DNA from: Methanobacteriota archaeon
Lineage (GTDB): Archaea; Thermoplasmatota; Poseidoniia; Poseidoniales; Poseidoniaceae
Direction of reading: 5' to 3'
Length of the DNA: 33,095 nt
NCBI GenBank assembly: GCA_018666575.1
Contig: JABIYX010000064.1
Location: forward strand, 1-33,095
The notes under the pieces were generated by a model that was given only the letters and a program-made list of their open reading frames with translations, was not told the origin of the DNA and did no database searches. The first letter of the stretch is position 1. Each line of letters begins with the position of its first letter. This document shows, in pieces, positions 6,772-11,871 of this stretch. A program made the translations under genes and the position numbers.

Positions 6772-9700
6772 TCAATCAGAATCTTCTGAACCGAGTACAG
6801 ACATCAGTGAGGACTGTTCTGCGATTCGATCCTTTACATCCGCTCTGCGTCCCTTTCCTACAAGGTAAAGAACACCAAAGAGAGAGAATGTTAGAAGAAC
6901 AATCATGGTTGGCAGTGCAACCTTTCCAGCAACTTCACCTGCGACATCCAAGAACGGGTTTGAAGAACCGAGTTCGTCTGAAATACGCATAACGTTGTTT
7001 CCTTCACTCGCTTCGACGATGTTGTTACCTGGATCGACGACGACGTAGACATTCTTGGTACCTGCAGTTACTGGGTAAAGCATGTACAGTTCAACGACGC
7101 GACCATCTTTCATTGAATCATCAGGCTTGTCGATTGCTCCAATTTCTTGTCGCATGACAATGCTGTCTTCATCGCACATGTTGCTGTTCTTGCGGATTGT
7201 ATCCTTCATATCATCATCGTCGTATTCGCAAAGAATGACTTCAATGTTGGAAGCATGGACGTTTCCTGTGTTGGCAATCTCAATTCGGATCGGAATGGAT
7301 TCGCCTACGTCAGCGGAGTCCTTATCTGTGGTTGCTGATACAACTTCTAGGTCAGGAGCACGGAGACTGACTGTAATGATTTTCTCATTAGAATCGAGGT
7401 TATCTCCGTCCCATGCAGCACTTTCATCGTGATCTCCACCGTCTTCCATACCACCCATCATTGAAACAACCTTCAGCCCAAGGCTTCGAGTTAAGAGTTG
7501 TGCGCCTGGATCGATTGAAACGATAGCCGCCATGGTGTAGGTTTCGTAAGGAACCATCTCAGGAAGTCTCCATTCATTGATATCTTCGAGATACACACAA
7601 CTGTCTTCTGGGAATGAGCTTGCTGTCGATTGTGTAACAACGCACTCTTCCTCGCTTTCCAAGTCAAGTCCAACCTGACGTAGAATCTTCCAAGAAACAC
7701 TCCATCCATCGAGAGTTCCCATACCAGGAGTCTCTGTCCATACGAGATCGTTTCCTGTTCGAGTCGAGGTGTGGTTATCCAATGAAGGAACATCTGGGAC
7801 GTTACCTGCGTTGGTGACATTGACTACGAACCTGACAATACGGCCAGGGGCAGAAGTCTTGACGTCATTCTCAACTGTCGGATCCATTGAGATTTGCATA
7901 TCATAGAACTCGTTAACAGTAACTTGCAGTGTTGCAACATCACGTAGTCGTGTCATACGGCCTGAAGCATCTGGGTAAGATTGTTCAGAGTAAGTGTTGA
8001 ACACAATGGTGTATTCGCCCGCAGGAACTTGCTGAGGGATGTTCATCAGAACATCGAAGATTTGTTCAGAATCTACGTCGAGTTCCTCAAGTGAGTTTCT
8101 TGGTATCTCGATGTCCCAGATGACATCAACGCCCGCGGAGTCAGTGACTCGAGCGAGAGTGTAATCAAAGCGGTCAGGTCCATTCCCTTCGTTTGTAACA
8201 GTTGTTGGTAGAGTAATCGAGTCTCCTGGGTTAACCAGCATGTCTGGATTTGCTCCCAAATCTATGGCCGTATCGAGTTTGTACACGTGGTTGATATCAA
8301 CTTGAAGAATCTTCGAAGCGGAGATCTTAGGATATCCTTTCAGATTTGCCTTGATCGTTACCGCCTTTCCTAGACCTGCAACTGAATCATCAGGTGCGCA
8401 GATCTTGACTTTGACTTCGTGAGTCCTTGATTCATCCCCGCTTAGAATAATCCATGGGCGAGAGATGCCATCAGGATTGAGTGGTAATCCAGTTGGGAAG
8501 ATGACTTCGACTGTCCAATTGTCTTCGTTATCGGTTGTACCAGGCGTAGTGAATACAAGGTCCCCTGAATCAAAATTCTTCGCAACATCGATCTCAAAGG
8601 TGTGACAATTAGGTTCCAATGCACCCGGCATGTAAGGAGCAGGTGTAACACGAGCTGATGTGTCGTTTTGGAACATCATAATGTTGTTTGAGGAACGTAT
8701 CGATACAAAGACACCTAATTCAAGAATATCATACGTACCTTTCTCGACGGACTTGATTGGTTCTCCAGCTGACCATCCCTTGAGTAATATTACGAATGCC
8801 CCTGGATCTTCAGAAGTTGGAACACTGATTTCAAGGTTCTTTGTTACAGTCTGTTGAGGATCAAGTTGTACGCTCATTGGGAAATTGACGTCCCATGCAA
8901 ACGGCAAAAGCCATTCTTGTCTTCCCTCGAGAGTTTGAGGGTCCCAGAAGAGGAATGTATCTGCTACGTTTCCAGTGTTGGTAATCGTAATCGAGAAGAT
9001 TGCGGTCTGTCCCTGTTCAACATCGGCAACGCTGTGCGAGCTATCGAGGTCAATTCCATGAACAACGTCCATGAGTGTTAGAGTGGTAATCTCAGACCGG
9101 ATTGCTGGATCCTTGTACGACTTAGCATCAACTCGTATTTCTGCTAATTCGTCACCATTCGCTTGATAAATCGATGGCGCCCGTACTCTGAGGTAAAATC
9201 GAATAGATTCGCCGCCTTCAAGGAAGATTGCGGTATCAGGGAAGATTGCTGTGTGGTTCTCTGCGAAGAATAATGTGGCTGTCCAGTTGGTTGGAACTCC
9301 TGTGATGTTGAGTCCGTATGTGTCTGCAACCAAATCCTTCGGTCCCGGTGTCGAGTTATTCATTGAAAGATTGTAGATGGTTTGTTCACCTGGTTCGATG
9401 ACGTGATAGAAGGTTTCTCCTTCTTCGAACTCTACATCAACTTGTCCTGTAAGGACGTGAGAATAACAGATAGTAAATCGGTTGTTGTTGGCTTGGTCGT
9501 TACACTTGTTGGTATCAGACCATGCAACGTGAGCCCCACTTCCAAGATCGTTTGAGAAAGCTGGCGGCATTCCAATACTCGGCTTATACCCGGAGTTAGG
9601 GCCAAGTTTGTTCGATGACCATTTCGTAATCGGCACAATTTCCCATGGATCAAGAGCAATGAGCCCATCGCCTTCCATGTTGGTATGGTTGAGACGGACA

Positions 9701-11784
9701 TACTGGATTTCTTCCCCTGCAGAGGTATTGCCTGAATCAACCCAAGCAATATGGATTTGATTTTGGTCGTCAGTCAGGAGTGAAGGGAATACGGAGTTTC
9801 CTCCCCACGGAGCGTTCTGTGGAAGGCCAGCATAGGTTTCAACATTCGAAATTGGTGTGTCGTTAATCTTCTTGATAGCATATGTGGATAGTCCATCATC
9901 GCGACCATCGAATTCTCCAGCGCCTTGCAAGCGAAGTTTGGTGTAGTAAACCTCGTAGTTGACATCCTTTTCGAATCCGTAATCACGTCCATCCATCCAT
10001 GCGATGTGTGTGTTACCTTCCATATCCACTCCAATAGATGGATGGAATGAGTAAGCGTCATCGATTGTTACACGAGTGTCATTTACAACGACAAGGTGTC
10101 CTTCTGAACCCTTTCCAGTGTCTTCAGAATAGCCTCCATTCACAACAACAGTTCCTGAAACACCAGGAGTCCAACTTGGGTCGTTGTCCATCTTACCATA
10201 TGGGTCGAGGACTGACATGTAGATCTCACGTGAATTGTTTGTTGAGATGTAGACCATAGCTTCTACGAGAAGAGCCATCGAACTCGCGCCACCGGATCCT
10301 GATGGGAATTCATAGACTTGTCCGCCCGCACTTGTTGAGCGGATTGTGTTTGCAGGGCAGTTTCGAGCTGCTGTGCTTTGAATACCATTCGGACAAAGTG
10401 ATAAATCTTTGAAATGGGATTGAACTCCAGTCGCTCCACCATATGTCTGACCGTACATCCCTACTGGGACAACGCCAGCAACAACACAGTTATCGTGAGC
10501 CTCTTCAATTGAGGTTGTATCGTCTGCTTGTTGTGCAGGGTCACCGTCTTTTGGACCTTCGTCAGAAATTGGAATTGCGATCTTTGTAGCGTTCGGATTC
10601 CATCTGTGGTCGTCTTGTGTTGGAGGATTTCCAGGAACGTTTCCTTGAGCATCCTTCCATGAAAGGCAGGCCCAGTTCGTACCAGGGCCCCAGTCTTCCC
10701 CAGAGTATCCGGAGTAAGTGTTTCCGTTGTATACGGTGCCTGGAAGTTTTCGGATTCCGCCAGAGTCATCGCCTGGTTGGATACCTAGAGCAGTTGTACG
10801 TGGTCCAGCATTTTTGTTGTGTGTAGCACAATTACCACTGCTTGCCGCACCTGGAAGGGTATTACCTAGTCCATAGATGGTCTCGTAAACAGTCATGTTT
10901 CCTTCTTCAAGCATAGGTTTTAATCCTTGGAAATAACCACCTGCTGCGAAGTTTCCACCGTAAATGACAGTGCAAACGTCAGCCCATTCAGAGTACATTG
11001 AACCAGAGGTGTCGACGATGAAGACGAGTTCAACCTTACCGCCTCGGGTATCGTCCCAAGCAATCTGAACAAGGTCGTTTGAATCGACAACGATGTCAGG
11101 ATGGCCTTTGTGGCCAATAATAGGTGTTAGGAGAGTGTCTTCGAAAAGTGTGAGGATGCTACCGGCATCAAATTCAGGTTGAATCATTGTGTAGTAAATT
11201 TGAGGTTGGTTGAAGAACATCTGAAGTTCGTCATAGGAATCTTGCCAAGCGATGTGTAGGTTCCCACGGCTGTCAACATCAATTGATGGCCAATCTCTGT
11301 CCTGTGCACGCATTGATAGGATGGTGTCGTCAATTTGAGAGATGGTGGTGTCTTCAACAGCCATACCATCCAAAGGAGCGAGGTATGGGTTTAGAGAAGT
11401 ATACATGATCTTGTATTGGCCAGATTTGTCTGCCCAAACGATGTGGATGCGATCGGTGTCATCGATGACCATGTCTGGATGCCAGACTTTGTGGAGTCCC
11501 GGATTGGTGATTTGAGTAGCGTCAATAAGCGTCTCTCCACGAGGCGATAGCATGGAGTAATACAGGTGCTGATTGTTGCGTGTCCACACGACGTGGACAT
11601 TGCCTTCACTGTCAGATGCAACGGTTGTTTGAGCATCGGATGCAGTTCCTCCGTCAACAATGCGGACTGCTTCTGTGATGACAACTTGGGAAGCTTCTGC
11701 TTCTTCTGTTCCAATAATTAATCCGGAGAATGCTGAAAGGAGCATTAAGCTGACGAGTGTAAATGATTTGGTTGTTTGACGCAT
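6772..11784 (-). CDS. Giant surface-anchored protein: beta-propeller with inserted VWA domain, Ig-like/CARDB repeats
   Basis: Secreted, membrane-anchored protein of 1670 residues. A signal peptide occupies about residues 1-30 (hydrophobic TLVSLMLLSAFSGLIIG). Seven propeller-type repeats with the pattern P-[SD]-x-x-x-D-x-x-x-x-x-H-[IV]-[AV]-W-x-D fall near 49-68, 101-119, 164-182, 228-245, 580-599, 666-683 and 733-757. A VWA domain with the MIDAS motif DTSGS (258-262) interrupts the fourth blade, from about 250 to 517. From about 800 on there are several Ig-like modules with the 'TNTGNVADTF' signature and a C-terminal CARDB-type module. One membrane helix (about 1623-1643) and a charged cytoplasmic tail close it. 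The start at 11784 is chosen because AGGTGA lies six bases before it and the signal peptide begins there; an upstream ATG at 11841 overlaps the promoter. Probable role: adhesion or binding of extracellular polymers (inference). Confidence 0.85.
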   Translation of the reverse strand: MRQTTKSFTLVSLMLLSAFSGLIIGTEEAEASQVVITEAVRIVDGGTASDAQTTVASDSEGNVHVVWTRNNQHLYYSMLSPRGETLIDATQITNPGLHKVWHPDMVIDDTDRIHIVWADKSGQYKIMYTSLNPYLAPLDGMAVEDTTISQIDDTILSMRAQDRDWPSIDVDSRGNLHIAWQDSYDELQMFFNQPQIYYTMIQPEFDAGSILTLFEDTLLTPIIGHKGHPDIVVDSNDLVQIAWDDTRGGKVELVFIVDTSGSMYSEWADVCTVIYGGNFAAGGYFQGLKPMLEEGNMTVYETIYGLGNTLPGAASSGNCATHNKNAGPRTTALGIQPGDDSGGIRKLPGTVYNGNTYSGYSGEDWGPGTNWACLSWKDAQGNVPGNPPTQDDHRWNPNATKIAIPISDEGPKDGDPAQQADDTTSIEEAHDNCVVAGVVPVGMYGQTYGGATGVQSHFKDLSLCPNGIQSTAARNCPANTIRSTSAGGQVYEFPSGSGGASSMALLVEAMVYISTNNSREIYMSVLDPYGKMDNDPSWTPGVSGTVVVNGGYSEDTGKGSEGHLVVVNDTRVTIDDAYSFHPSIGVDMEGNTHIAWMDGRDYGFEKDVNYEVYYTKLRLQGAGEFDGRDDGLSTYAIKKINDTPISNVETYAGLPQNAPWGGNSVFPSLLTDDQNQIHIAWVDSGNTSAGEEIQYVRLNHTNMEGDGLIALDPWEIVPITKWSSNKLGPNSGYKPSIGMPPAFSNDLGSGAHVAWSDTNKCNDQANNNRFTICYSHVLTGQVDVEFEEGETFYHVIEPGEQTIYNLSMNNSTPGPKDLVADTYGLNITGVPTNWTATLFFAENHTAIFPDTAIFLEGGESIRFYLRVRAPSIYQANGDELAEIRVDAKSYKDPAIRSEITTLTLMDVVHGIDLDSSHSVADVEQGQTAIFSITITNTGNVADTFLFWDPQTLEGRQEWLLPFAWDVNFPMSVQLDPQQTVTKNLEISVPTSEDPGAFVILLKGWSAGEPIKSVEKGTYDILELGVFVSIRSSNNIMMFQNDTSARVTPAPYMPGALEPNCHTFEIDVAKNFDSGDLVFTTPGTTDNEDNWTVEVIFPTGLPLNPDGISRPWIILSGDESRTHEVKVKICAPDDSVAGLGKAVTIKANLKGYPKISASKILQVDINHVYKLDTAIDLGANPDMLVNPGDSITLPTTVTNEGNGPDRFDYTLARVTDSAGVDVIWDIEIPRNSLEELDVDSEQIFDVLMNIPQQVPAGEYTIVFNTYSEQSYPDASGRMTRLRDVATLQVTVNEFYDMQISMDPTVENDVKTSAPGRIVRFVVNVTNAGNVPDVPSLDNHTSTRTGNDLVWTETPGMGTLDGWSVSWKILRQVGLDLESEEECVVTQSTASSFPEDSCVYLEDINEWRLPEMVPYETYTMAAIVSIDPGAQLLTRSLGLKVVSMMGGMEDGGDHDESAAWDGDNLDSNEKIITVSLRAPDLEVVSATTDKDSADVGESIPIRIEIANTGNVHASNIEVILCEYDDDDMKDTIRKNSNMCDEDSIVMRQEIGAIDKPDDSMKDGRVVELYMLYPVTAGTKNVYVVVDPGNNIVEASEGNNVMRISDELGSSNPFLDVAGEVAGKVALPTMIVLLTFSLFGVLYLVGKGRRADVKDRIAEQSSLMSVLGSEDSD

Positions 11785-11828: not shown

Positions 11829-11871
11829 CCGCGCCCCTCAAGCGTCAGTTAGACAAGGCGTGAATTTGCTT

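Follow-up and report, generated by a model that had tools for sequence, protein, structure and literature searches.

The window, a stretch of 33,095 nucleotides from a Methanobacteriota archaeon, carries on its minus strand a gene whose product is a membrane protein of the Poseidoniales (Marine Group II), marine archaea that are abundant. Judging from its sequence, a VWA domain most likely sits in the b-c hairpin of blade 4 of this protein's β-propeller. We consider it more probable than not that the protein is a surface receptor in which a seven-bladed propeller serves as the platform for the VWA domain spliced into its fourth blade, and that its likely task is attachment.

Domain layout and the split of blade 4

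Read from the ATG at 11784, the gene occupies positions 6772-11784 of the minus strand and encodes 1670 amino acids, while the open reading frame listed from the TTG at 11841 encodes 1689, with the ATG at residue 20. Because matches begin at residues 13-24 in most relatives and at residues 1-3 in some close ones, the choice between the two start codons is ambiguous. Residues are numbered here from the TTG; the first-pass annotation counted from the ATG at 11784. As judged from the open reading frame listing and hydropathy, the product read from the ATG consists of a signal-type segment, the propeller with the inserted VWA domain, a stalk, a transmembrane helix and a short tail. Hydropathy is maximal in scanning segments that start at residues 25-28 and 1637-1646, corresponding to the signal-type segment and to a single C-terminal transmembrane helix at about residues 1637-1664 (positions 6850-6933), after which comes the short charged tail. 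The stalk, residues 803-1630 (6952-9435), holds about six β-sandwich repeats when counted by eye, and matches the choice-of-anchor T (NF041740), CARDB (PF07705) and DUF7507 models above their cut-offs.

The propeller was delineated with a blade profile built from nine family rows, with blades 1, 2, 3, 5 and 6 as the training set and blades 4 and 7 left out. Seven blade starts were found, at residues 72, 121, 184, 247, 600, 685 and 753, the seventh weakly. The blades that form part of the training set score 51.0 bits (blade 1, residues 72-120, positions 11482-11628), 70.0 bits (blade 2, residues 121-183, 11293-11481), 70.3 bits (blade 3, residues 184-246, 11104-11292), 74.3 bits (blade 5, residues 600-684, 9790-10044) and 68.8 bits (blade 6, residues 685-752, 9586-9789). 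Blade 7, outside the training set, is the weakest, and its strands a-c at residues 753-802 (9436-9585) reach only 4.3 bits. Its outer closing strand is probably provided by residues 53-63 (VVITEAVRIVD, 11653-11685), which resemble the other d strands by eye and coincide with a predicted strand at model residues 9-11.

Blade 4 is found in two parts. Its front half, strands a and b at residues 247-269 (11035-11103), aligns with profile positions 1-20 at residues 247-266 and scores 12.7 bits in the whole protein, again outside the training set. The inserted domain follows at residues 270-537 (10231-11034), and strands c and d are assigned to residues 538-599 (10045-10230). The VWA segment lies where the first-pass annotation had put it, with IAWDDTRGGK at residues 260-269, DTSGSM from residue 277 and REIYMS from residue 538. 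Scored as best domains, the front half gives 19.8 bits, the back half 2.2 and the two halves joined 25.5, and no match with the blade profile was reported in the VWA segment.

The assignment of the back half comes from a joining control, in which each of 1498 stretches, 62 residues long, was attached in turn to the front half of blade 4; the true join, taken without the preceding 15 residues, scores 26.1 bits. This value was equalled or exceeded by 91 of the 1498 joins (the true one included), 80 of which start within blades 1, 2, 5 and 6, all members of the training set. The remaining 11 start at residues 528-539, and the true join is among them. None of the 1012 joins that start in the VWA domain (residues 270-470) or in the stalk (after residue 815) reaches 26.1 bits; their median is 18.7 and the best of them 25.3, a small margin of 0.8 bits. 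The chain was thus found to resume after the VWA domain and to complete blade 4, as had been proposed. Since joins starting at residues 528-536 score up to 29.8 bits, the C-terminal edge of the VWA domain is uncertain by about ten residues.

An AlphaFold2 model of residues 45-840, built from 52 alignment rows (orthologues of 73-98% identity), has a mean pLDDT of 57.5 and a pTM of 0.60. It is good in blades 1-3 and patchy after model residue 325, with pLDDT below 50 through most of the interior of the VWA domain and in some stretches of blades 5-7. Whole seven-bladed propellers align across the insertion, the best being CylK at Z 30.1 with 349 residues aligned over model residues 12-756. Next come the PLL/PHL lectins, at Z 26.9-28.2 with alignments that end at model residues 755-756, and Sec12 at 26.5. 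CylK, PLL/PHL and Sec12 are presumably all seven-bladed, and their alignments end at model residues 755-757, consistent with a ring of seven blades; model residue 756 is residue 800, so that the fold matches extend into blade 7. From the 349 aligned residues we infer that the VWA domain is skipped in these alignments, the output of which gives the ends of the ranges only. Some Foldseek alignments extend across the insertion, with TM scores of up to 0.66 by target length at an rmsd of about 6, and many of the best rows cover only about 205-270 columns. The predicted propeller therefore closes around the VWA domain, as the first-pass annotation had anticipated, in a model of low confidence in the VWA domain and patchy in blades 5-7. 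No VWA chain occurs among the 50 structural matches listed; the propeller fills this list, which is uninformative on the VWA domain.

An alternative layout would be a tandem one such as that of PilY1, with the VWA domain beside the propeller, or with partial propellers on either side of it, so that the split of blade 4 is only apparent. Blade 7 and the back half of blade 4, with their scores of 4.3 and 2.2 bits, would be understandable under such a layout, as would the patchiness of the model after residue 325 and the narrow win in the joining control (26.1 versus 25.3 bits), and PilY1 itself has its VWA domain ahead of the propeller (PMC6322766). However, the chain that follows the VWA domain completes blade 4 better than any of the 1012 stretches from the VWA domain and stalk, and the fold matches describe one propeller over model residues 12-756, with seven blade starts in all. 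We hence regard a tandem arrangement as very improbable. Insertion inside one blade was also the claim of the first-pass annotation, and neither an insertion between complete blades nor separate propellers were seen, the propellers aligning as one unit.

The same structural lists raise the question as to whether the propeller is an enzyme, of sialidase, rhamnosidase or polysaccharide-lyase type, with the VWA domain serving only to target it to its substrate. The Foldseek list holds BT3686-type glycoside hydrolases, sialidases and PL25 ulvan lyases, and the NCBIfam model AlphRhmnaseBT3686 matches at an E-value of 0.015. Yet that match scores 13.8, where the model's cut-off is 700, and lectins and WD40-type proteins, which are not enzymes, appear in the same structural lists. 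An enzymatic propeller is accordingly improbable, although less so than the tandem layout.

The inserted domain and its putative metal site

Residues 270-537 are probably a divergent VWA domain, identified by the conservation of its MIDAS residues and cysteines, by a chain of profile comparisons and by the low-confidence secondary structure of the full model; homology to known VWA domains is reached via intermediates only. The MIDAS motifs were examined in an alignment of 118 rows (117 distinct segments and the query again). In the DxSxS motif (10999-11013), Asp277 and Ser279 are present in 118 of 118 rows and Ser281 in 116, the last MIDAS serine being missing from two paralogues, L111 and L112. 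Thr388 (10678-10680, in GPGTNW), which we take from the pattern to be the MIDAS threonine, is Thr or Ser in 117 of 118 rows, while Asp427 (10561-10563, in IPISDEG) occurs in all 118. The domain had also been described as rich in cysteines, and six are indeed invariant in 118 of 118 rows. In the full model, strands at model residues 225-232, 273-281 and 375-382 and helices at 241-250, 398-410 and 474-492 follow one another in an order that fits a VWA domain, with low confidence; AlphaFold2 applied to the VWA domain alone gave a pLDDT of 31.9.

Direct searches did not identify the domain. Pfam reported no VWA family in any of eight family segments even at an E-value of 10, neither the VWA profile nor the propeller-plus-VWA profile matched the PDB sequences, and a search of the genome itself with VWA_2 and PF00092 found nothing. 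Being invisible to Pfam, this VWA domain will be missed by pipelines based on it. A 32-member VWA profile, on the other hand, matches long proteins in four genomes of another family of the phylum (f5; best E-value 1.1e-11), which carry DTSGSM-, WGPGTSW- and IPISDE-type motifs and whose best match to PF00092 (E-value 1.6e-4, 22.4 bits) lies below the cut-off of 23.8. When profiles were compared, the VWA domain of the propeller protein matched those of f5 at 99.8% over 158 columns, the f5 set itself having been gathered with the former's own profile. The f5 set in turn matched 22 Pfam-type VWA domains of the phylum (those longer than 140 amino acids among the 28 found) at 97.1% over 157 columns. 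The direct comparison between the two ends of this chain gave 79% over 13 columns only. As a control, the propeller profiles gave 0.1% against the Pfam-type VWA domains; the VWA profile gave 11% over 7 columns against the N-terminal half of the propeller, and 75% over 9 columns against the C-terminal flank, columns in which the two alignments overlap.

Two functions come into consideration. The VWA domain may act in metal-dependent adhesion, as the first-pass annotation had proposed. Alternatively, it could serve structure or maturation, as a metal-locked scaffold on which proteins of the cell envelope assemble with one another, and have no adhesive role. The six invariant cysteines, like the long loops, suggest that the module is rigid and extracellular, and the two paralogues with an incomplete MIDAS would likewise fit a scaffold. 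Against this, the invariance of Asp277, Ser279 and Asp427 in 118 of 118 rows is what would be expected of a working metal site, an observation that is also compatible with a part in assembly. A scaffold is also suggested by the occurrence of the gene at a conserved place in 59 of 60 genomes, as befits a housekeeping envelope part more than a niche adhesin. We rate the structural function as unlikely, but as a more serious competitor than an enzymatic propeller.

Comparison with known systems and a proposed role

The closest architectural parallel is the integrin α chain with an α-I domain, found in chordates. There too a MIDAS-containing VWA domain is set into a seven-bladed propeller, and the propeller forms the N-terminal end of a protein anchored in the membrane. 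Integrin α chains also have a β-sandwich stalk, a transmembrane helix and a short tail. The headpieces of integrin αM and αL match the model at Z 23.9 and 23.1, matches for which the propeller accounts. The integrin VWA domain differs in lying between blades 2 and 3, an arrangement that arose around the first chordates (PMC3192720, PMC12422189). The archaeal one lies within blade 4, where it separates strand b from strand c. No calcium loop of the DxDxDG type occurs in residues 52-802, and no FG-GAP family is among the Pfam matches at E-values up to 1, a weak test because Pfam detects no blade of this protein; its blades match the PDIAV type instead. Membership of the integrin α family was considered and rejected on blade type and insertion site. 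The likeness to α-I integrins is thus one of analogy and not of kinship, the two having apparently evolved separately.

PilY1 and PilC, adhesins at the tip of bacterial type IV pili, similarly combine a MIDAS-bearing VWA domain and a β-propeller in one surface protein (PMC6322766). In PilY1, however, the VWA domain precedes the propeller in tandem, and these proteins have a propeller of the Neisseria-PilC type, whereas the archaeal VWA domain is nested and its protein has a membrane-anchored stalk. The Neisseria-PilC propeller family is absent from the Pfam matches at E-values up to 1. By blade signature the protein resembles the PDIAV/RIVW-type propeller proteins, whose model NF053835 matches the propeller at an E-value of 1.5e-11 (44.4 bits, cut-off 90); those proteins differ in that the portions read, which do not always span the whole protein, gave no match to the VWA domain. 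RIVW repeats are reportedly the subject of Adindla et al. 2007. Lastly, the f5 proteins have the same VWA subtype (DTSGSM, ESWGPGTSW, IPISDE) but carry it among Ig-like repeats, as judged by eye, without blades and, also by eye, without the long loops. No description of a VWA domain nested in a propeller in prokaryotes was found among the papers listed by searches of an open-access library. The arrangement, which the first-pass annotation had called uncommon, would accordingly be so among prokaryotes, none having been described in the literature searched; the chordate integrin α chain has an analogue of it.

A role can be proposed for the receptor. The propeller and its VWA domain would be displayed at the cell surface, held off the membrane by the stalk. 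The VWA domain may bind Mg2+ or a similar ion, and the metal site could then grip an acidic group of a ligand, be it a particle, a polymer or a cell-surface protein. The b-c loop of a blade lies on the face of a propeller. The propeller itself might present the VWA domain rigidly, and perhaps offer another face for binding. The outcome would be attachment to particles or cells. Archaella, thrombospondin-like genes and flotillin were pointed to in earlier work; a MIDAS protein that is widespread and anchored in the membrane offers a concrete and testable candidate. Should it bind a ligand, the mounting of a VWA domain on a propeller would have at least two origins, one among chordate integrins and one among archaea, and would give a general clue as to why propellers suit the presentation of VWA domains.

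Distribution, history and paralogues

A search with the whole protein found a match in 59 of 60 genomes, the genome of origin counted. Among the best 80 of 180 relatives with named records, nearly all are labelled Poseidoniales, Poseidoniaceae, Poseidonia or Euryarchaeota, with identities of at most 95%. The family codes f1 and f2 used here are equated with Poseidoniaceae and Thalassarchaeaceae, as we infer from record titles and PMC6461757. The neighbourhood is conserved among those of 80 loci that have enough flanking sequence: on one side of the gene, topoisomerase VI B, topoisomerase VI A, an unnamed open reading frame and an HTH gene are kept in 61, 64, 64 and 64 of 64 loci, and on the other DUF2299, an acyltransferase and HIT are each kept in 65 of 65. 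In four f1/f2 genomes (G042, G254, G321 and G391) the VWA domain had no match, which could reflect either absence of the gene or an assembly gap; the propeller profile has no match in G254 and G391 and only weak ones in G042 and G321 (E-values of about 1e-6 and 1e-7).

Orthologues without the VWA domain, which the first-pass annotation had suggested comparing, were looked for and none was found. In the scan of the genome collection the domain is present in all 78 of the 80 loci that have both flanks, and in 139 of 139 open reading frames that match both flanks. In a larger, overlapping set it is present in 160 of 161. This set was chosen by matches to the whole protein or to the VWA domain and so leans towards carriers of the domain, and the same genome may count twice: of the 154 rows left after length filtering, 134 are distinct. 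The single exception, L228, is a fragment at a contig edge that starts inside a nested insert, and its match to the N-terminal flank falls in the C-terminal blades.

The propeller itself is spread more widely, the profile of its N-terminal half having matches in 184 of 389 genomes of the phylum, f1 and f2 included. Of 30 matching stretches from 10 re-searched genomes, 28 were read, from other families and from two Poseidoniales genomes. A VWA match is lacking in 26 of these 28, and the remaining two are the gene of the VWA-propeller family itself. Conversely, no blade reaches a positive score in those parts of the f5 VWA proteins that were read. Since the phylum thus contains propellers with no VWA match and VWA domains with no detected blades, insertion of the VWA domain into the propeller is the likelier direction. 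Distances in the VWA domain and in the flanks are correlated (r about 0.95), and the data suggest a single old insertion, before the main Poseidoniales families split.

A bolder version of the receptor reading, tentative and rather less probable than the attachment role alone, is that an integrin-α-like receptor evolved independently in Poseidoniales, with the VWA domain as an exchangeable ligand-reading cassette that is common to paralogues with diverged propellers and has been diversified by domains inserted before its last helix. In the paralogue L113, the VWA domain is 79% identical to that of the orthologue L124 in the same genome and 81% identical to that of L125 in another, with flanks at 29-36%. 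L213 similarly has 73-78% identity in the VWA domain and 22-37% in the flanks relative to the three Poseidoniaceae-type rows compared. In quick trees, the flanks of L113 reject its placement together with seven orthologues from f2 (p-AU 1.3e-55), and its VWA domain rejects neither the paralogue grouping (p-AU 0.551) nor the orthologue grouping (p-AU 0.362). A swap of the cassette between paralogues was therefore not adopted as the explanation, strong constraint on the VWA domain together with fast-changing blades accounting for these data equally well.

In f2 paralogues the VWA domain is itself interrupted, between its last strand and its last helix. In 16 of 134 distinct rows the VWA segment exceeds 350 amino acids, compared with 283-313 elsewhere (median 287); the nested insert is therefore about 160-275 residues long. 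For L226 a stray match adds to the measured segment length, its own insert being about 255 residues.

Nested insertion in the propeller-borne VWA domain

In paralogues of the window's gene from f2 genomes (L118, L119, L121, L122, L127, L128 and L216-L225; f2 is one family within the phylum), the VWA is itself interrupted by an additional beta-rich insert. This insert comprises approximately 160-275 residues and is located at the junction between the last strand and the last helix of the VWA; a Pfam scan of the three paralogues L118, L119 and L128 gave no match. These f2 paralogues display three levels of nesting, in which an insert domain resides within a VWA domain that in turn lies within a propeller blade.

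Divergence of the VWA and its host blade

In paralogues L113 and L213, the VWA is 73-81% identical to the VWAs of orthologues, whereas the flanking blades reach just 20-37%; L113 was compared with L124, both being from a single genome, G045. This contrast reflects either recombination or a constraint that is very uneven along the protein, and a tree test, conducted for L113 only, singled out neither of the two.

In the divergent paralogue pair L111 and L112, the final serine of the MIDAS metal-site motif has been lost (DSSGGM and DSSTGM), and both proteins retain the MIDAS aspartates and all six cysteines. In the window's protein, the signature histidine of the HIVW type is present in blades 1-3, 5 and 6, and is replaced in the VWA-bearing blade 4 (window 11035-11103) by glutamine (VQIAW).

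Related records and C-terminal repeats

The same VWA subtype occurs in very long proteins of another family, f5 (L142, L143, L144 and L145; open frames of 1561-3271 aa), where it is surrounded by repeats that appear Ig-like by eye. The record L037, which bears the title 'uncultured Rhodobiaceae bacterium', contains a copy of the gene 87% identical to the window's and is probably a mis-binned Poseidoniales contig. Finally, the C-terminal parts of paralogues L228 and L213 carry acidic repeats of the DxDxDG type which, as identified by eye, resemble thrombospondin type 3 calcium repeats.
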